A DNA stretch of 64,000 bases. Source: Blepharisma japonicum. Lineage: Eukaryota; Ciliophora; Heterotrichea; Heterotrichida; Blepharismidae. The stretch lies in the NCBI GenBank assembly GCA_949751835.1, contig CATKHK010000094.1, positions 62,001 through 126,000 on the forward strand, given 5' to 3'. The translations under genes were made by a program, and so were the position numbers. Shown in pieces: positions 3,464 through 56,884 of the stretch. Below the pieces are notes generated by a model. That model was not told the DNA's origin. It was given only the letters and a program-made list of their open reading frames with translations, and made no database searches. How positions within the stretch are numbered: position 1 is the first letter of the stretch; the number at the start of each line of letters is the position of its first letter.

Positions 3464-4102
3464 TTAGATCTCGTAAAAAATAGATAAAATTGTTAGTCCT
3501 CCAAAGATTATAAAAACAATTCCTGCAAGAATTTTCATATACTTTTCAGGCATATACTTACTTGTCAATTTTCCAATTAAAACTGAGCAAACGCTGCATA
3601 ACCCAATTCCAAAGAAAGCGCCAATAATCGTAAAAATTGGATCAGTGACTGCAGATATCGTTATAATGCTGAGCTGAGAGATATCACCCCATTCTGCAAA
3701 AAATACGAGTACTATTGTTTTCCAAAAAGTTTTAAACCAGTTTGGCGCTGAAATAAGATTTTCATGCAAGTCTTCACTATCGCTGTCAGAATCATCATCT
3801 TTTTTGAAAGCTTCATAGAAAGATAATCCAGCGAATATAAAAAAAAGCACTGATGATATAATAGTTATATAGATTTGGTTTATCAGTAGTTGTGCAGCGT
3901 AGCCAATGTAAGCTGAAATTATTATCATTACCGTCATGATAACTTGATTTCCGACTAAAACTGCGCTTGGAGAGTATGTCATTGAGAGAACAATCAGTAT
4001 AAAGAAAGTTCTGTCGCCTATTTCTGATAGAAAAATAGCTAAAAACGAACTTAAAATTGCGCCTAAAGGAGATTCGTCATATATAGGTGTATTTTCACCC
4101 AT
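3464..4102 (-). CDS. GDT1/TMEM165-family cation transporter (GDT1a)
   Basis: A 212-residue membrane protein with the duplicated GDT1 fold. Motif 1 is SEIGDRT (residues 26-32). Motif 2 is AEWGDIS: it keeps the acidic pair but has Ile at the usual Lys/Arg. The linker is very acidic (DDDSDSDSEDLHE). It uses TGG, not TGA, at the Trp of 'NWFKTFW', which calibrates the code for its twin at 871-1509. It starts 33 nt after the stop of the TMEM161-family gene on the same strand, and that spacing is preserved in the other unit. It probably acts in an endomembrane compartment, by family analogy. Confidence 0.9.
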   Translation of the reverse strand: MGENTPIYDESPLGAILSSFLAIFLSEIGDRTFFILIVLSMTYSPSAVLVGNQVIMTVMIIISAYIGYAAQLLINQIYITIISSVLFFIFAGLSFYEAFKKDDDSDSDSEDLHENLISAPNWFKTFWKTIVLVFFAEWGDISQLSIITISAVTDPIFTIIGAFFGIGLCSVCSVLIGKLTSKYMPEKYMKILAGIVFIIFGGLTILSIFYEI

Positions 4103-4135: not shown

Positions 4136-5623
4136 TTATTCCTTTTTAGCCTTATTTGTAAATCTTCTTGTATACAGCAAAGACATGACTGTTGCCAAAC
4201 TCCATGTCACTGCTTGCCACCATATAATAAACCCAAATAAATCTCTATAAAAAAATGCTGGGATAAGTCCTTTCTTATTGACGCTAAGCAGCTTTTGCAC
4301 AAAATTTTTGTCATCTTTGACTGTTTCTTCAAGGGTTGTTCTATTTTGCCTTAATTCAGCTATTTCTTTTTCCATTTGTCTGATTTCATTATAATAAACA
4401 GTCGTTCTTGAAGGTGTAATAATAGGATACGTTGGGATATCTTTTATAATGAATTCTTCTTCATCATAAAATTCAGGGGTTTTGTTGATTATTTCATTTT
4501 TATGCTCAATTGGGACTGGATATGATGTTGACAATGAGCCTCGAGAAATCATCAAAATTAAGATGAATAAAGTGACACATATATTGCAGAGGCTTTGATG
4601 TCCTAATGGCCACGCATAAGTGGCAAGAGCTTTAGCCTGCATAGTTGAGGTTTCAACGTTTTCTTTGGTAGGATTGAGAAGAATGCCATATATTAAGTGC
4701 TTGGATTGGTTAAGTAAAGCTTGGACTTCATTTCGGATGTTAAATAGTCTTAATAAAATAACTCCAACGACAACTGCTATTCTAAATATTTCGTATCCCC
4801 ATTCAGACATGAGATTAGGGACAAGATGATTTTTCAGCATAGGTTTGATCCACATAATCATAACAATTAGAGGAGAAATGATAACTAGTGTGTATTGCAA
4901 TCTGTTTTCTTTGACACCTTTGACATCAAAAGGGGTTTCTCTTGTTGAGTAATAATTCATTGTTGCTCTAAAAATGTACTTGAAGAAAGGGAAAATGCAT
5001 GTGGCAAAAATCCCTGCTAGTGTTATACTGAAAACCATGTGATCAATCTCAATTGAGGCTGGCCAAAATATTTGTAAAGCTGCTGTAAGCTGCAAGGAGA
5101 GCAGCTTCAAAGTCAAGTGAAAATTAAAATCAAATACTGCTTGATGATCAAGGTAGATTAATAAAGAGCCCATAAAGAAGATCAATAAAGTAAAAAATAA
5201 GCCAATCATATTGTCTGGGTTTTTAAAGCCTGATGCCATCGCCTGTGAATACGCTCCACTAATTGCTATAAACACAACTAGTAAGCACATATAAAAACTT
5301 AGATTTTGCTCCATTGATATATAAAAATCTTCTGTAAATACACTACATACAGCAATTAAAGTTCCTGCTATTGTAGCCATAAGTACCAATAAGTCAGCAT
5401 CTGCGAAAAAAGGAGACGCTCTTGAAAATTCATCATCGATTCTTACGCAATTCAGATAGAATTTTTCTGGATGCTTTTGAGCACTTTGAATCAGCTTCTC
5501 ATCAGGAGGGATATATATCACGAGCCCTTTTAGCAGCTTTTCTGTGGATAATCTTCGACGAAGCCTTGTTGTGATAAAAATTAAGATGCAAAGGATCACA
5601 AATTCCCCTGTAAAAAATTGCAT
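4136..5623 (-). CDS. TMEM161-family multipass membrane protein
   Basis: A 495-residue protein with about eight to nine hydrophobic segments. It resembles animal TMEM161A/B: a short N-terminal anchor followed by 'YIPPDEKL' (compare YIHPSEEEL in the animal proteins), then a run of helices, a 'MIMWIKPMLK' segment matching the family's 'VLLWVKPI' region, and 'FRIAVVVGVILLRL' followed by 'VQALLNQSK'. The C-terminal third has an extended hydrophilic loop (about residues 370-440) before a final helix. The molecular role of TMEM161 proteins is poorly defined; the animal members affect membrane excitability. A truncated relative lies at 1541-2050. No TGA codons are needed. The name rests on remembered family sequence. 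Confidence 0.72.
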   Translation of the reverse strand: MQFFTGEFVILCILIFITTRLRRRLSTEKLLKGLVIYIPPDEKLIQSAQKHPEKFYLNCVRIDDEFSRASPFFADADLLVLMATIAGTLIAVCSVFTEDFYISMEQNLSFYMCLLVVFIAISGAYSQAMASGFKNPDNMIGLFFTLLIFFMGSLLIYLDHQAVFDFNFHLTLKLLSLQLTAALQIFWPASIEIDHMVFSITLAGIFATCIFPFFKYIFRATMNYYSTRETPFDVKGVKENRLQYTLVIISPLIVMIMWIKPMLKNHLVPNLMSEWGYEIFRIAVVVGVILLRLFNIRNEVQALLNQSKHLIYGILLNPTKENVETSTMQAKALATYAWPLGHQSLCNICVTLFILILMISRGSLSTSYPVPIEHKNEIINKTPEFYDEEEFIIKDIPTYPIITPSRTTVYYNEIRQMEKEIAELRQNRTTLEETVKDDKNFVQKLLSVNKKGLIPAFFYRDLFGFIIWWQAVTWSLATVMSLLYTRRFTNKAKKE

Positions 5624-5687: not shown

Positions 5688-7076
5688 TTAAATATGATAA
5701 TGTTGAGTGTCTAATAAACTATCAGAATTTTGTTCTTGTAGCTGGCTTAGAGTTTCAAGTTCATGTAGTTTAGCAGAAAGTTTTTGTAAAGTATTTATCT
5801 GATCTAGTAAAATAGCTTTTATTTGAATTCGATAATTAACCTTCTTTACTTATTACTGCTGCAAAATTCCTGAAATTAAGAGAATCGTTCAAAACTTTCT
5901 GGTCTTCTTCAATTGAAGTTGGAAAATCCATCAATTTGTGATGAATGATAATTAAGGCCGCATTAATGGCATTTCTTTCTCCCTCAAAATTTGATAAATG
6001 AGTATTTAAACTTTTCAATAAAAAAATCAGTTCTATTTATTTGTTTTACCCTTGCATAATTCATTTTTCTTGACAATAAATGAATACTTTTCTTTATTTG
6101 TCCAACGTTTTAAAAACAGATCTTCTGATATATCATCAATTGCAAAATTAATTATTGCATAATCGTAAATATTTTCACTCAAAGAAAATCCATAGTCCAA
6201 AAGTAATATCCTGTTTGGATATTTCCCATATGATAAAAATAGTTCTTCGCCAGTCTCAACAGTACAGTTTGGATCTGTTTTTATCACTAAACTATAATTA
6301 TTATTTGCCAGCTGCTGATCAGCAATCAAATTTTCATTAGTGTCTAAATTCTGCACTATATGGTTTAGGCTATTTGAGGATGATTTCATTAGTTTATCAC
6401 TTAATTTTGACTCTTCTTTATACCAATTATACGAAGCACAATTGTTTCTATGATTTAACAATTCAGCAACTGGAATAAGAACAGGCTCTCCAGCTGGGTC
6501 TTTAAAGCACCGAGTCTTCACAAGTTTATAAGCTCAGTCAAAAATTTTATATTTAGTCATGCCAACAGAAAAATATTGAGGATAATTTCTAATAGCTCTT
6601 TTTCATTGAGAATAAGTTTTCATTTCACTTGCCATCCTTTGCTTTGCCTAACTAATATCTACCATCTTTGCAAGATCTTCATCTTGAAGCTCTTTCAGCT
6701 CTTCCCCAGATCAATCTTGAATTAACTTAAAAGCTTTGGGTTGAGAACTAATATAATAATATCATTTTGAGTTATTTTCTTTGAATTTTTCTCAAATTAA
6801 GAAAGTTACCAATATTAGAATTTGCAATTCTTCATTATTTTTTGTGAAGATGCCCTCATTTTCTATAAAAATTTGCCCAATTTCACTATTCATCGCAATT
6901 TCTTTGCTTATCATGCATGAACTTGGGACTAAAATTATGTCTTCTCCAGGCTGAATTTCTGCAATTGCTCTTATCCCCACATTCTTATTATTAAAAAACC
7001 ACTCGACTTTATTCCATTTCACTCCTTCCCCTCTTGCTCAGTCAAAATATTCAAAAATCTTTCCTTCTGAGTCCAT
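5688..7076 (-). CDS. SET-domain protein methyltransferase, SETD3/RuBisCO-LSMT type
   Basis: The N-terminal part has the class signature 'GVKWNKVEWFF...VGIRAIAEIQPGEDIILVP'-type arrangement (G-x-x-A, I-x-x-G-E, VPSS). The core holds PVAELLNHR (the 'P-x-x-D-x-x-NH' SET motif) and 'ELFLSYGKYPN...LLLDYGF' (the S-Y-G catalytic strand and the YGF post-motif). The C-terminus is the helical substrate-binding region. Members methylate lysine or histidine in proteins such as ribosomal proteins and actin. Two introns are needed: 15 nt at 6648-6662 and 16 nt at 5841-5856. Removing them restores one frame, with several TGA=Trp codons, from the ATG at 7074-7076 to the TAA at 5688-5690. The start lies only 21 bp from the divergent gene at 7098. 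Confidence 0.85.
5841..5856 (-). other. 16-nt intron in the SET-domain gene
   Basis: On the minus strand it reads GTAATAAGTAAAGAAG. Removing it joins 'GCA GCA' to 'GTT AAT TAT' and opens about 50 further codons that otherwise follow a TAA. Position 10 is A. Confidence 0.85.
6648..6662 (-). other. 15-nt intron in the SET-domain gene
   Basis: On the minus strand it reads GTAGATATTAGTTAG. It contains the only in-frame TAG between the N-terminal and core SET segments; its removal keeps the frame (AAG ATG | GCA AAG). Position 10 is A. Confidence 0.88.
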
Positions 7077-7097
7077 ATTTTTACAAAAATATAACAT

Positions 7098-18592: not shown

Positions 18593-19174
18593 ATGCTGAA
18601 ACAGCCTTTAGCACCCATTTCTATTCTAAAAGAAAAACCAGCTAAGAAACACACTCTACCCCACGTCAAAGGAAAACCTCAAATTCTCTACAAATACAAG
18701 TCCTCTGCCCAAAAAACTATTCTTCAAAAAGAGCTTAGTCCCGAAACTTTTTACATAAAAAGTATTGACTACAAAACTCTTTCAAAATCTCTCCAAGCTT
18801 ACCTTGAGATTTCACACAAAAAGAACAGCATCAGACCCGATAAATTCGCGTACCAAGAAAAACAATTTCCAAACCTCAACGAAAAGCCCCAAACGACCAA
18901 TGAAAATCAAAATGCAGTCGTGGAGAATACTGACGGCTCAGACTTATACTGTATCTGTAAGAGACCGTATGTCCAAGGTGAAATCATGTTCAAATGTGAA
19001 GGTTTCTGTGGGAATTGGTATCACCCAGAATGCATCAACTTACACAATAGTGAAATTGAGAGGCAGTTGAATAGTTCGGAAAGATGGTATTGTCCTAATT
19101 GTATGCAGGCTGCGCTAGAAGTAGTCGATGACTCAGGTTTATCGAGAGAAAATAGGAAATCTAGATTTAAATAA
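18593..19174 (+). CDS. PHD-finger protein
   Basis: A 193-residue protein. The C-terminal third is a PHD zinc finger with the full C4-H-C3 ligand set: C120, C122, C135, C139, H144, C147, C167 and C170 ('YCICKRPY', 'FCGNWYHPECI', 'RWYCPNC'). The Trp two residues before the seventh ligand is typical. PHD fingers read histone H3 tails, often H3K4me3; the N-terminal 110 residues are basic and disordered. This is probably a chromatin-associated factor, comparable to the small CXXC1/Spp1-type or ING-type subunits, but the subfamily is not clear. Confidence 0.87.
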   Translation: MLKQPLAPISILKEKPAKKHTLPHVKGKPQILYKYKSSAQKTILQKELSPETFYIKSIDYKTLSKSLQAYLEISHKKNSIRPDKFAYQEKQFPNLNEKPQTTNENQNAVVENTDGSDLYCICKRPYVQGEIMFKCEGFCGNWYHPECINLHNSEIERQLNSSERWYCPNCMQAALEVVDDSGLSRENRKSRFK

Positions 19175-29914: not shown

Positions 29915-31198
29915 ATGGACTCGGAAAAGGAAAATTTATCACTTAGGAGAAAAAATAGGAGGATTGATATTTCTCAAGAATTATTTTCGAAGTGAAGAGC
30001 ATGTGAAACAGTTCACGCAATATTTGCAATTATTGGTATTGTAGTAGTAACATTGGATTATGAGTATAGTTATTGTAATGATAGAAATGCAACAAATTGC
30101 TCAATAAGCACTCGAAGAACTGACTTATATTTAATTTTGAATTTACTGACGACGTTTATATCTTTATGATTTTTGCTGCTGAGATATTATATTAAAAATC
30201 GGCGAGAATCTTATTTATCTGAAAAAGAAATTTACATACCTGTAACAATGTCATTATCAAAATTCCCTGTTGAGCAGGTTTATGATAAGAAACGTTTCTT
30301 CACCAAATTAAGAATAGTAGAAATTGTTACTTTACTTATCATTCCTTATCCTTATATTGATTGAAAAATTTATATCCCATTAAGGCACCAATATGAAACT
30401 ATATGAACTTGTTACACCTTCGCAGAAGTCACATATTTCTTCATGTTCGCCAGATTTATGTTCCTAATTCGAGCACTTGCAAACTATACACCATATGAAA
30501 ATTATATAGCAAGAAGATATTGCCAAAAAAATCATGTCTCTGCAAACTTAAGATTTTCATTTAAATGTATGATGAAAAAGTCTCCCGTTATCAAAACTAT
30601 AACGTTTTTAGCAATCCCATCACTTTTTATTTTGTCACAAATGCTAAGAATTTTCGAAAGACCTCTTGATGAAATAACAGGCCAAGATTTTCAGAACCCA
30701 TTAAACGCATTATGATGTATGTTTGCAAGCATGTCAACTGTAGGGTACGGCGATTTTTATCCAATCAGCTTTTTTGGAAGAACAGCTGTGGTATTAGGAT
30801 ACATTATGGGAGCACTAAGCTTAACAATCGTTATTGTTAGATTTGGTAGCTATGTCAGTTTAAACGAAAAGCAAAATAAAGCCTTCATGAGTATTTTGAT
30901 GACTTCTGCAGCTGCCATAACAATCCAAGCCGGAATGAAATATTTTGTTTCAAAAATAAAAAGAGGTAAAGGTCACCCGGTATCAGTGTCCTTGTATGGG
31001 AAATATAAAGAGGCAGTATATGATTTTCAACTTAAAAAAGGAGAACTTAACGAAATTGTGGGACAAAAAGAAAAAGCTATAAAAGAAGCAAGGACGCGCT
31101 GCGCAAATATTGATGCAGAAGTAAATAGACTTTTGAAAAAGGCTGACAACTTGTCAAAGATGATTAGAAACATGAATAATGATACTTCATTAACGTAA
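29915..31198 (+). CDS. Potassium channel, six-TM SK-like
   Basis: A 427-residue protein; several TGA=Trp codons are needed, one of them just before the pore. Hydrophobic segments fit S1-S6. The pore carries STVGYGDFYP (TVGYGD at residues 275-280), the canonical K+ selectivity filter. A 'FLIRALANYTPYENYIARRYC' region (S4-S5 linker) and a post-S6 helical segment with basic patches (KRGKGHPVS, then a coiled coil) resemble small-conductance Ca2+-activated (SK/KCNN) channels, whose S4 has few charges and whose C-terminus binds calmodulin. The similarity to SK is inferred, not proven. It is followed within 10 nt by a paralog. Confidence 0.85.
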
Positions 31199-31208
31199 TT
31201 AATAATAT

Positions 31209-32501
31209 ATGAAAAGTCGTCGATTTGACCCAAGAGCATCGATTGTAAAAAATAAAAGAAATTTATTTTCACAAAAATTATTTCAGCAATGAAGAGCATG
31301 TGAAACTACCCAAGCATTTTTCGCTATTTTTGGACTTATAGTTACAGGATTTGACTATGAGATTAATTACTCCTCTTATAGAACTCCTACAAATTGCCTT
31401 GAAAATAATGACGCAGATGAGCTTTTTAGGCTAATAATACTGTTTACATCATTACTATCAGTTTTCTTTTCAGTTTTGAGACACATCATCAAATATAAAT
31501 GAGAGAACCATCTTGAAGAAGAAAAGTTCAATCTTCCCATAAGCTATTCAGAAATATCAGTTATTCAAGGAGAAGAAGCTCTTTATAAAAATTCGTTTAT
31601 GCAAATATCTACACTGCTCGAAATTGCATATCTCATGATTTTTCCATATCCAAACACTTATTGGAAGTTTTATGTCCCATTAAGGATTAATTTTGAAGCC
31701 TATGAAACATGCTATACATTACTTGAGGTCACTTACTTCATAATGTACTTTAGATTCATATTTCTCCTCAGAGCGTTAGCTAACTATACTCCATATGAAA
31801 ATTATTTAGCGCGACTTTATTGCAAAAAACATAATGTTATTCCTGATATTTATTTTTCTTTTAAATGCATGTTTAGAAGGACCCCAATCTTTTGAACACT
31901 CATAACAATCCAGCTCCCAACAATTTTTTTCCTAGGCACCACTCTTCGTATTTTTGAAAGGCCTCTTGCATCACAAAGTGAACAAGATTTTGCGAATCCA
32001 TGAAATGGATGGTACCTCATTTTTTGCATGATGTCAATACTTGGGTTTGGGCCAATTTATCCATTCACTTATTATGGAAGATTTATAGGATGTGTCCTTG
32101 GGTATGCAATTGGTAGATTTGGATATACCATTTTGTTTTACAAGTCAGAAAAATCAATTGCTTTTGATCAAAAGCAACATCAAGCTTTTATCAGTATTTT
32201 AGGCACTTCTGTGGCTGCATCTGTTATACAAAATGGTATGAAATATTTAATTTCAAGAGGAAAAAGGGGCTCAGGTCATCCAGTGACAATTGATTTATTT
32301 AGAAAATTAAAAATTGCAATAATTGAATTTAAAGAGAAAAAAATTGAAGTAAATACACTCGATAATACTCAAGGCAAAATCACAAGAAATCTTAAGCAGT
32401 CTATAAACAAAATTGATGCTAAGCTTAATAAATCAATTAAGCAAGCAGAAAATATTTTAAAAGCTGTATTAGAATGGAAGAAAGCTCTTGCAAATGCTTA
32501 G
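31209..32501 (+). CDS. SK-like channel paralog with an altered selectivity filter
   Basis: A 430-residue paralog of the gene 10 nt upstream, sharing 'QWRACET' near the N-terminus, 'LRALANYTPYENYLARLYC', 'LRIFERPL' and the post-S6 'KRGSGHPVT' block. The frame is intact and uses TGA for Trp. At the pore, STVGYGD is replaced by SILGFGP (residues 276-282): Thr, Tyr and the filter Asp are lost. It may be a non-conducting or differently selective subunit that joins the upstream channel, or a channel with unusual permeation. Strong conservation elsewhere argues against a decaying pseudogene. Confidence 0.83.
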
Positions 32502-51538: not shown

Positions 51539-54223
51539 TTAAAAATCAGCGAGTGTAAGCAGCCTTTGTTTGTTTTTGCTTAGCCACTTTTTAGCTTTCA
51601 TAACAACAAGCTCCCATAGACACTTGTAATCTTCGCACTTTTGATTAAGTAATGCAACAATTAAAGCTGTAGTTAGCTTTTCATCTAGTTTTGACCAATA
51701 GCTAGTAACTCTTTTATCATAACCAATCAAATTATTTACAATCTCTGATAAGTTTGTGGAAGATTCCCAAAAACCATCAGGATTTTGTAGATGCATTATT
51801 TTTTCAACTTCGTATCCAATGTCAATGCATCTCACTTCTTTGTTTTCTTGGGGCCTTGGAGCATAAATAGCTTCTTTTTCCTTATTTTCTATTTGCTGTA
51901 TTTCAATCTTTTCTATTTTAGCCTCAGTTTTTTCTACTTTAGCTTTTTTACGAGGAGGAATTACTTTTGCTTGTTTAGTCCTTCCTCTTTTGGTCTGTAA
52001 TTCTACATCTGCTAACTTTGAGGCGCTTCTAGTTCTTGGAGTATTGATTTGTGTCGCAATTATAACAGATGCATTTTTTTTAGGAGTTATCTGCCTCATA
52101 CTTTTTGGTGCAGAATTTTTAGCAGCCTGTTTAGATTGAGGTTTAGCCTGTTCTGCAGGTTTGGGTTTCACTTTCCCTGATCTTGTTCTTCCTTGACTGA
52201 TGTTTGCTGACTGATTTTGAGCTTTTTGCTGTATATCAATTGCAGCTTGCTGCATATCTTCAGGCCTAATAGTTGCCCTTTTATGATTCGCAGAAGTATT
52301 AGCCGATTCTTTAAAAATCTCTACAATATACGCTTCAGCAGCTTCCTGAAATGCTTGAATTGCTTCTTTTCTGAATCTCATGTCAGGAATTATACCATCA
52401 CTTATAGTTCGAATAATATTTTTAAATTTTGTTTTTGGAATAAGCAACTCTGTAGTATTTTCCACTGTTTTTATTTCTCTGTCTGAAAGCTTCCCTTGCT
52501 TTTCTTTCTTTGGTTTCTCAATTTTAATAGTCGGAACAATATTTCTTGCTTGTACAGTCTTTTTCTTAGGTGTAAAAACAGCTTTAACTGCATTTTTTAT
52601 CTCAACTGGCAATTCTTCTTTTTCATATCTTTCTATGTCAAATGCTGTGAATTGTCCTTCAACTTGGTACTCTTTGGATTTCGTAACTGATGTTTCTCGA
52701 TCACATCTATTTAAATATTCTTTAGTTTCTAATAGAAAAACTGAACTAGAAGCTGGAATACAATCTTGGTTTATTTCTAACTCAATATTTTGAGAAAATC
52801 CTTCTTTTTCATATTGCAATTTTATGCTATCAGGGAGTTTTCGGTTCTTGAAAACTCCTGAAATTTCAACTTTCTCACCTGAAAAAATACTAAAAGGGTC
52901 TTTTGGGAGCACAAAGTCAAATGGCTCATAGTCTGCGAGCTGAATATTAGAAAGCTCAGGAACTAATGCTTGCTTTAATGAGCTCAAAATTGCAGGTTTT
53001 ATCTGGTTTTCACTATTGATTTGTTGAGAAGTGCCGTTGCCTAATTTAGCAAGCTCATCAATAAAAGGTTGATTTGTGTTAATTCCGATAGTGCTTATTT
53101 TTGCATCATTTTTATGTTTTTTGACCAATGTAGTTATTTCATTTTTATTCATCCATACATTCCCATCAGTCACTACAAAGATATGTAATGCATATCCTGG
53201 AATTCTGGGGCACCCAAAAGCATATTCCAAAGGAGCAAGGAGCTTTGTTCCTGCCAAGTCACTTTTATATCCGAGAACCAAACGGTGCGCTTCATCAGCC
53301 GAGCTTTTATCATATTTTTTACTTATATTGAACATGATTTCAAACCTGCTTCCAAAGCTTACTACATTAAAATAGCAGTTTGCAGGAAGAGAACGAATAA
53401 ATAATGCAACTGCTTCTGTGGCTAATTTTATCCTGCTCGCCATTGAGCCACTTCTGTCTAGTAAAATCACAAACTCTCCATCATTTCCTCTTTCATTTAA
53501 GTCAGGTAATTCTTTATAAGGTGTATAGGACAAATTAAAGGCGTATCTATCAACTCTTGGATCTTTTTGGACTATTAGTAAAGGCTCTTTTGGGATTTTA
53601 AAATAATAAATAAGCTCAATATCATAATTAGGGTCAAAGTTTCTGAAGGTTGCCATGTTTTGCTTTTCATCAAGCGTTATCGAATTTCCCTTTTTTAAAA
53701 TAAAATTCCCATGTTCTTTAGGGAAATCTTTTCATACTATAAAAGCTTCTGCTGAGTGTGCGATGTTTTCTAATTTATTAGGCAAAAGATCTTTGGGGAT
53801 TTTGAATTTCCAATAGTTTTCAGGAGATATTTGCTCGGTTTTGCAGACGTAAACTGCTTTAATTGCAATTTGAGAATTTGCTAAAACATTTCCAACTCCA
53901 TAAGACATCATATTAGTTTCTCTTAATTTTTCAAGCGTGTAAACGCTTTCCCCTGCATTTTTAGCGTCTTCATATAATTTTAAAGGCTTTTGGCACTCTT
54001 CAATTTTAATTTGAAACTCAGTTTTATCTGTAAAAATTGAGAGATTTGATAAATGTATGCCAGAAATGCTCGGAAAAACGTATTTTGTTTGCATTGTGGC
54101 ATTAGAAGTGTTGGTGTATCATGATTCAATGTAAAACTCTCCGTAATTATAATGAATTCCAATACGACAATGGAATTTTGTCAAGATAAGCTGCTCATTT
54201 TTGGTGCCAACTAAGCAGGACAT
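51539..54223 (-). CDS. VIT-vWA protein with internal histone-H3-like domain
   Basis: An 894-residue protein; two TGA=Trp codons are needed near the N-terminus. Residues about 1-150 form a VIT domain (inter-alpha-trypsin/PARP4 style). A vWA domain carries the MIDAS motif DRSGSM at 256-261, with later TDG ('VVTDGNVW'). Residues 591-668 align with the histone H3 fold (TELLIPKTKF, DMRFRKEAIQAF, QEAAEAYIVEIF, HKRATIRPEDMQQA). A basic Lys/Arg/Pro/Gln-rich linker follows, and residues about 800-894 (LQNPDGFWES... WELVVMKAKKWL) resemble the C-terminal domain shared by VWA5A and PARP4. It has no PARP catalytic motif. VIT-vWA proteins occur in the vault particle context; the H3-like insert is unexpected. 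Confidence 0.82.
52220..52453 (-). other. Histone-H3-like fold embedded in the VIT-vWA protein
   Basis: This segment encodes residues 591-668. Against the H3 core: ELLIPKTKF matches H3 ELLIRKLPF, DMRFRKEAIQAF matches DLRFQSSAVMAL, QEAAEAYIVEIF matches QEACEAYLVGLF, and HKRATIRPEDMQQA matches HAKRVTIMPKDIQLA. It covers alpha-1 to alpha-3. No H3 N-terminal tail (ARTKQT...) precedes it. A surface loop differs (SANTSANHKR). The comparison rests on remembered H3 sequence. Confidence 0.8.
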
Positions 54224-54500
54224 TTGTATTATATATAAAAATGGAAATATAAAATATATCATAATATATTATATTTTGTAATTAACTTATGATATAAACG
54301 TTAATATTGCAAAATACTTTAGCTTAATTTTACATGGACATCACCCCAATATTTTTAAAGAAAAAGACAGTGTTTTGAATTAAAGTTTTGCAATATGATA
54401 AGATCAAGGAGAATTAGAAGCTAATTGGGATAAATTAAACTAATGATAGTTTTATTTTCATTTTTTATTCAAATCTATATAAGTAAATTTTAATTAAGAA

Positions 54501-55648: not shown

Positions 55649-56884
55649 TTATGCTATAATCCAGTCTAATGATGACCTACAAATCGGGCATTGCCTCTTT
55701 AATTTAGACCATTCGACAATGCAATTATTATGAAAAGTATGGCCACAAGAAGTTTGAACTGGTGCCCATATTTCTACGTTTTCTAAACTCGTTTCTTTTG
55801 TGTATAAAGGAATCATGCAAATAACGCACTCAGCAGTTTGCACTTCTTCAGAGATCCTGAAAAACAGCCCAGTCTCTCCTTCCTCTCTATAATAAAAAGG
55901 AAGAAACCACCAGTACCATTTCTGCCCTAAAGCTTCTTTTAAATTATTATAAATTCCTCTATCATAGGGTGAAACTTCAAATTTTTTCAGTTTCTGCGCA
56001 AATCATTTTTTTTCCCAAAATTCCAGTCACGTATAATTTCCTGAAATTATTTTGATATTTAAAGTTAAAAATATTGCGGTTGATAGTGAAAACAGACAAG
56101 CCATTGTATAACTAAAAACTACTAAAAAACATATAAAAGTTGACGATTCTGAGTCATTAAGCACTACAATAACAGTTTCCCAAAAAGTCGCTACAATTAA
56201 TATTGCTGACAATTCTCCATATAGCATCATCAAGAAAAAGTACTTATAATTGAAATACCCTATACAGTTAGGAATTCATTCACAATGATGATGAAGTTTT
56301 AATACACATCTTCCACAAAATTTGCAATGATGACATCTATCAGGTTTACATAAATTGCATCATTTGCAGATTCTTGCTTTTCCATCATGTCTCTTTTCAA
56401 CCAAGCCAACGCGTTCTAAATTTGCATCTTTTTTCAATTCTGCAGGAACTTGTCAATCTGGAGGAATAGTCCCAGGGTCTGTTATATAAGCTCGAAAATA
56501 GCTTATAAGTATAATTGAAAACCAAAAGGTGCAGATGCTGAAACAGATTCATCCTCGCAGTTTTGCATTTTCTTTCTCACTTTCACTGTGCCAGAAATAA
56601 ATTTCTGGCCTATCATCTGTGTCACCAACTAGGTAATAAATATAAAGCCAAATATAAAGAGCATATGCGCTTATAATAGTTCCTAATGTTGATGCTATAG
56701 GTAGAGAAGCTCCAATTTTATAATAAATTATTGCCAATTTTTGTTTTTTATCAGCTTCTGGCCATGGCGGAAGATATCTCTCAGGGATTTCTACTGGCCC
56801 CTCTTGCATTGAAAACTTTGCTTTTTGGTTTTCTTCTTCAGCAGTATTTAGCAAATTCTTCGATTCTGGGTCGTCTTCTTCCAT
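55649..56884 (-). CDS. DHHC-type palmitoyltransferase fused to a RING-H2 finger
   Basis: A 411-residue protein. Four hydrophobic helices are arranged as in S-acyltransferases, with a cysteine-rich domain between them: ARICKWCNLCKPDRCHHCKF, then the active-site region LKLHHHCEWIPNCIGYFN. The first Asp of the DHHC tetrad is His (HHHC, residues 198-201); the essential Cys201 is kept. The Trp after it is TGA, at the invariant position of 'HHCPWINNC'. The post-TM4 'SPYDRGIYNNLKEALG' and 'WWFLPFYY' match the family C-terminal region. Residues 352-404 form a RING-H2 finger (CVICMIPLY, SCGHTFHNNCIVEW, CPICRSS), so the same protein could be a ubiquitin ligase. Both domains lie in one frame, with no stop between them. 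Confidence 0.87.

Follow-up and report, generated by a model that had tools for sequence, protein, structure and literature searches.

A VIT–vWA protein with an embedded H3-type histone domain

Introduction

It is rare for a core histone to form part of another protein. In macroH2A, a true nucleosomal variant, a core-histone fold and a non-histone (macro) domain are joined in one eukaryotic protein; the fold there is that of H2A, whereas in the gene described here an H3-type fold lies within a VIT–vWA protein. Excerpts of a review on histones mention an archaeal fusion of a histone with a Roadblock domain. In the yeast Pol I factor UAF, according to excerpts of PMC9020658, H3 functions outside nucleosomes as part of a histone-fold complex; an ordinary H3 is borrowed there, whereas in the present protein an H3-like fold is built into another polypeptide.

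VWA5A/BCSC-1 and Dictyostelium Vwa1 are intracellular VIT–vWFA proteins. According to excerpts of PMC10539598, the layout of Vwa1, defined by comparison with ITIH1, runs from VIT through Hyb-1a, vWFA, Hyb-1b, a three-helix bundle, VITpt2 and a long disordered loop to a C-terminal domain (CTD), which is common to Vwa1 and VWA5A and is predicted to bind the vWFA domain. The present protein shares with these the VIT domain, hybrid-like halves, a MIDAS-bearing vWA domain and a VITpt2-like strand, with what is probably a CTD-like end, but its pre-CTD loop is filled by an H3-type domain and a very basic tail. The known VIT–vWA adaptor relatives are not described as having a histone domain, and no such fusion is named in open-licence PMC titles and abstract openings, among the matches listed, or in excerpts of PMC11441545, PMC2964712, PMC2939574 and PMC9942856.

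Coding frame and genetic code

The gene lies in a 64,000-nucleotide stretch of Blepharisma japonicum DNA (the window), with a G+C content of 32.0%. An initial sequence-only reading had described one fused frame with the coordinates given in Table 1. Both points hold: profile searches place the VIT, vWA and histone domains in that order in a single 894-residue frame. The frame is on the minus strand, and it stays open only when TGA is read as tryptophan. Two in-frame TGA codons, W35 and W164, would be stops under the standard code, and an alternative in-frame ATG at 54262, 13 codons upstream of the start, is likewise open. In 22 selected ORFs (of 78 listed), 48 in-frame TGA codons were counted against 82 TGG codons, a count to be read as consistent with this decoding, since TGA had been treated as open in calling them. 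Stronger evidence is given by the VIT match, which spans W35, and by an alignment with bacterial VIT–vWA proteins that continues across W164.

Table 1 Features of the VIT–vWA–H3 gene (window coordinates)
Feature	Residues	Position	Strand	Evidence
Whole coding region, 894 aa + TAA		51539..54223	-	open with TGA=Trp
VIT domain	14–125	53849..54184	-	Pfam PF08487, E 1.6e-11
vWA domain	250–400	53024..53476	-	Pfam VWA_3, E 2.8e-20
Hybrid-1b-like segment after vWA	411–478	52790..52993	-	ITIH1, TIGR03788 and bacterial alignments
VITpt2-like strand (VEGQFTAFDIERYEK)	521–535	52619..52663	-	alignment with two bacterial VIT–vWA proteins
H3-type histone domain (Pfam extent)	554–661	52241..52564	-	PF00125, E 1.5e-19
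αN region of H3-type domain		52451–52519	-	
Histone fold of H3-type domain		52244–52450	-	
Very basic low-complexity tail	680–790	51854..52186	-	composition, motif scans
C-terminal segment, tentative VWA5A/Vwa1-type CTD	800–894	51542..51826	-	weak VWA5A match

Excerpts of PMC9942806 report for Blepharisma stoltei that UGA encodes tryptophan, that introns are mostly 15 and 16 bp long and that genes are densely packed; they also mention a histone, BSTOLATCC_MAC21995, whose upregulation is specific to development. Elsewhere in the window, a SET-domain-like gene (6033–7097, minus strand, recognized by eye) becomes one 356-residue open stretch once the 15-nt GTAGATATTAGTTAG is removed; the three other regions tried for short introns gave nothing convincing, leaving one positive region of four. 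The code, the 15-nt intron and the composition fit a Blepharisma-type heterotrich.

The reported introns bear on whether the fusion could be an artefact, either a misassembly or two genes read as one, as the gene contains 15 GT..AG stretches of the lengths reported in excerpts of PMC9942806 (6 of 15 nt and 9 of 16 nt). Excision of one 16-nt stretch would, however, disrupt the frame, and the absence of TAA and TAG over 894 codons has a probability of about 1.6e-17 by window composition, so that so long an open frame is not due to chance. Codon usage is alike in six segments of the gene: codon fit ranges from 0.22 to 0.37, with 0.272 for the histone segment against 0.261 for the whole gene. The other genes in the window range from 0.116 to 0.342, an interval that includes five of the segments and excludes the basic tail (0.369). 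The frame also runs on beyond the histone domain into the CTD-like segment, so a chimera would require two in-frame joins. An artefact of either kind is hardly credible, and a split gene was rejected on the counts of GT..AG stretches together with the stop-free frame and the codon usage.

The VIT–vWA core

The VIT and vWA domains, both named in the sequence-only reading, exceed their curated Pfam cut-offs, the former with 44.8 bits against 26.5 and the latter, as VWA_3, with 73.4 bits against 27. The DRSGS motif at residues 256–260 (53444–53458) is present as that reading had stated, accompanied by AGT and TDG, and we take the three to be the elements of a MIDAS. A PDB search with the first 544 residues gave two matches at E up to 1e-3, PARP4 (E 4.3e-9) and ITIH1 (4.5e-5); a weak PARP4 stretch of 14.0 bits falls in the VIT region.

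Beyond the vWA domain, the ITIH1 alignment extends to residue 479, and the TIGR03788 model aligns to residue 483 with 92.6 bits, under that model's cut-off. The Hybrid-1b-like segment defined in this way also aligned with two distant bacterial VIT–vWA proteins that were found in a plasmid scan (2 of 72,556 records) and used solely for checking the core layout. The VITpt2-like strand, assigned by the layout in excerpts of PMC10539598, was taken as the end of the core, which is complete to about residue 535 in the alignment with these two proteins. Compared with the two bacterial proteins, the helical stretch preceding the strand is shorter by 11 residues, and the shortness of this stretch also sets the protein apart from VWA5A and Vwa1.

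The VIT–vWA unit is shared with PARP4, the vault PARP, from which the present protein differs in having an added histone domain and no PARP catalytic or BRCT domain in Pfam searches up to E 10. In the earlier label 'vault-type/VIT', 'vault-type' is loose, given the absence of a PARP catalytic domain and a layout that fits the intracellular VWA5A/Vwa1 kind (excerpts of PMC10539598).

The histone domain

The histone domain begins approximately 20 residues past the end of the core; with the core complete to about residue 535 and the histone match starting at 554, the domain sits in the pre-CTD loop. It scored 70.9 bits against the Histone model (PF00125), whose curated cut-off is 26.4. The proposed match to the H3 core from α1 to α3 is significant, and every motif quoted for it is present in the translation. 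Its extent had been placed at residues 591–668, whereas the match is further N-terminal, at 554–661, and includes the H3 αN region. The histone-like family CBFD_NFYB_HMF also matched, slightly below its cut-off (E 3.3e-4).

When the whole protein was searched against the PDB with phmmer, 178 distinct sequences were matched up to E 0.1, and the best 60 of the 178 were all H3s, with H3.Y the best among the matches listed (E 1.2e-19). The alignment to H3 covers 94 columns, including loop 1 and the αN region, and contains no gaps; 37 columns are identical to H3.3 and 40 to H3.Y. Identity is 30/69 in the fold proper (H3 residues 59–127) and 7/23 in H3 residues 36–58. In contrast to H3 and H3.Y, the domain has no free N-terminal tail and forms an internal part of a large protein.

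When single histone sequences were set among 12,000 shuffles in a local test, H3 scored 69.4 bits and CENP-A 35.5 bits, H4, H2A and H2B gave no match at E up to 1, and one shuffled H3 reached 15.8 bits as background. Alignment with the one CENP-A used, which shares the H3 kind of histone fold, requires two extra residues in loop 1, whereas alignment with H3 requires none. A cenH3 identity was rejected on these grounds, CENP-A scoring half as much as H3 and loop 1 having the H3 length. Judged by these alignments, the domain is of H3 type and not of cenH3 type.

Structure prediction modestly supports a histone fold. AlphaFold2 (AF2), run in single-sequence mode on a 124-residue construct, gave a model with a pLDDT of 59.6 for which none of 20 Foldseek matches was a histone. 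An 84-residue core, picked after that construct had failed, gave a pLDDT of 72.0 and a pTM of 0.34, with three helices at H3 positions 64–78, 85–113 and 121–137, borders that we take to be near those of the H3 helices. Among the best 5 of its 26 Foldseek matches, four were nucleosome entries and the other was from UAF, the matched chains being presumably H3 (E 0.025–0.051, prob 0.93–0.97, 39–42% identity, TM 0.44–0.47 by query length, rmsd 5.5–5.7); none of the 26 reached E 0.001. Because Foldseek also uses sequence, these matches are not independent of the sequence match. The structural comparison suggested at the outset gave weak histone matches for the shorter construct and no histone match for the longer one.

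Basic tail and C-terminal segment

The histone domain is followed by the very basic tail that had been noted in the sequence, residues 666–790 containing 31 K/R against 10 D/E. Motifs within it include TPKK, TPRTR and PPRKKAKV (51935–51958), the last of which we take to resemble a nuclear signal.

The C-terminal segment matched one VWA5A C-terminus with 21.2 bits (E 1.7e-4). It had no match in Pfam, and PARP4 was absent from the two PDB matches found with it up to E 10. In view of these results the segment is probably a CTD of the VWA5A/Vwa1 type, and support for the VWA5A/PARP4 assignment made earlier is weak.

Retained and altered H3 surfaces

Seven classes of H3 residues, given in H3 numbering, were compared with the domain, similarity being scored by BLOSUM62 and P values obtained from random draws of positions; without correction for seven comparisons, the values serve as hints. 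In the handshake core, 18 of 22 residues are similar (P 0.029). The loop-1/loop-2 motif residues are similar at 9 of 9 positions (P 0.012), in a class that was defined after the alignment had been seen. DNA contacts (9/13 similar, 7/13 identical), core modification sites (5/7 similar, 3/7 identical) and the loop-1 pair (2/2 similar) are unremarkable against random draws. The H3–H3′ bundle is similar at 5 of 10 positions and identical at 3 (low-tail P 0.29), and the small set of ASF1 contacts is similar at 1 of 5 (low-tail P 0.061). This pattern hints that the handshake may be kept and ASF1 binding lost.

Among individual residues, D81, R83, F84, K115, R116, T118, I119, P121 and D123 are retained, as are R49, K64 and R72. 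None of the positions K36, K56, K79 and K122 is lysine in the domain. On the H3–H3′ side, L126Q, R129I, I130D and H113N are altered, and these single changes make a normal H3–H3′ contact doubtful; taken together, however, the positions of this class are no more altered than the rest of the domain, so the case against tetramer formation rests on individual residues. Several H3–H3′ and ASF1 residues thus distinguish the domain from H3 and H3.Y.

Searches for relatives

No relative carrying the fusion was found in viral, plasmid and prokaryote collections, an absence that means little given that the collections consist of viruses, plasmids and prokaryotes. Viral scans with the vWA stretch, with H3.3 and with the H3/query alignment gave no match; the failure of even the H3.3 query to match anything shows that the scans have low sensitivity, and little can be read into their negative outcome. 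Two scans of prokaryote contigs were likewise without a match. One viral match, located in a phage-type structural gene and sharing a short ISDGIIPDM-like string, was taken as chance and rejected.

Possible role

Histone folds as a rule need a partner, and the kept handshake core suggests that H4 or an H4-like histone-fold protein would be the partner of this one. Considered together with the basic tail, its nuclear-signal-like motif and the MIDAS-bearing vWA domain, this points most simply to an adaptor that docks to chromatin or to a histone-fold complex. We tentatively prefer this reading, at a little short of even confidence: a VWA5A/Vwa1-like adaptor would carry the H3-type domain in its loop, pair through it with H4 or an H4-like protein and so be docked on chromatin or a histone-fold complex, and would not serve as a bulk nucleosomal histone. 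The lysine-rich tail would carry the protein to the nucleus and contact DNA, the MIDAS side of the vWA domain would bind a client protein, and the C-terminal domain may gate that binding, as proposed for Vwa1. An F-box protein and components of SCF are recovered when Vwa1 is purified (excerpts of PMC10539598), which by analogy makes a ubiquitin-linked client one possibility. The core-shrinking changes I112A and V117A count against the preferred reading, as do R63P and R69N, which remove DNA contacts.

The kept handshake core, combined with the loss of ASF1 positions (1/5) and of some DNA contacts (7/13 identical), would also suit an H3-like fold acting purely as a dimerisation module, with a dedicated non-H4 histone-fold partner in a non-nucleosomal complex of the kind represented by UAF or TFIID and no role on chromatin. 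A generic dimeriser would not need such closeness to H3 proper, loops 1 and 2 included, nor the basic tail, and we regard this as unlikely. Incorporation into nucleosomes as a true H3 variant, with the VIT–vWA body on its N-terminal side, would agree with the alignable αN region, with R49, K64, R72, R83, K115, R116 and T118 and with H3–H3′ positions no more altered than the rest (P 0.29); it is nevertheless rather improbable in the face of 3/10 identity in the H3–H3′ class, with L126Q, R129I and I130D, of R63P and R69N, and of the missing lysines at 36, 56, 79 and 122. The same four positions speak against mimicry of H3 for the capture of a modifying enzyme or of an H3 chaperone, the latter raised at the outset; the surface, H3-like from αN to α3, speaks for it. 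With 1 of 5 ASF1 contacts kept (P 0.06, a small set), capture of ASF1 looks less likely, and mimicry in general is very improbable.

In a wider form of the docked-adaptor reading, which is conceivable and held with less assurance, an H3-type core histone is a permanent part of a MIDAS adaptor, so that handshake docking on H4 or chromatin would be coupled to ligand binding by the vWA domain, possibly in macronuclear development. If true, a MIDAS adaptor with a built-in H3 would constitute a new class of histone-containing scaffold. Occurring in organisms whose nuclei are of two kinds, an H3-type fold within a VIT–vWA protein would provide the poorly understood VWA5A/Vwa1 family with its first concrete histone link.

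Other genes in the window

A gene at 55649–56884 (minus strand) combines in one frame a DHHC palmitoyltransferase (E 2e-28) and, near its C-terminus, a RING-H2 finger (E 4.1e-9), possibly another unusual fusion. Between 871 and 5623 (minus strand) lie three similar GDT1-like ORFs, with a Pfam match for 3464–4102 and the others recognized by eye, and an ORF at 1694–2050 that looks like a shortened version of the TMEM161-like gene (4136–5623); the region is probably a local duplication. Two alike neighbouring genes occupy 29915–32501 (plus strand), an ion-channel domain being found in the first (E 6.8e-10) and the second being read by eye. A small PHD-finger protein (E 4.1e-7), encoded at 18593–19174 on the plus strand, adds another chromatin-type domain to the window.
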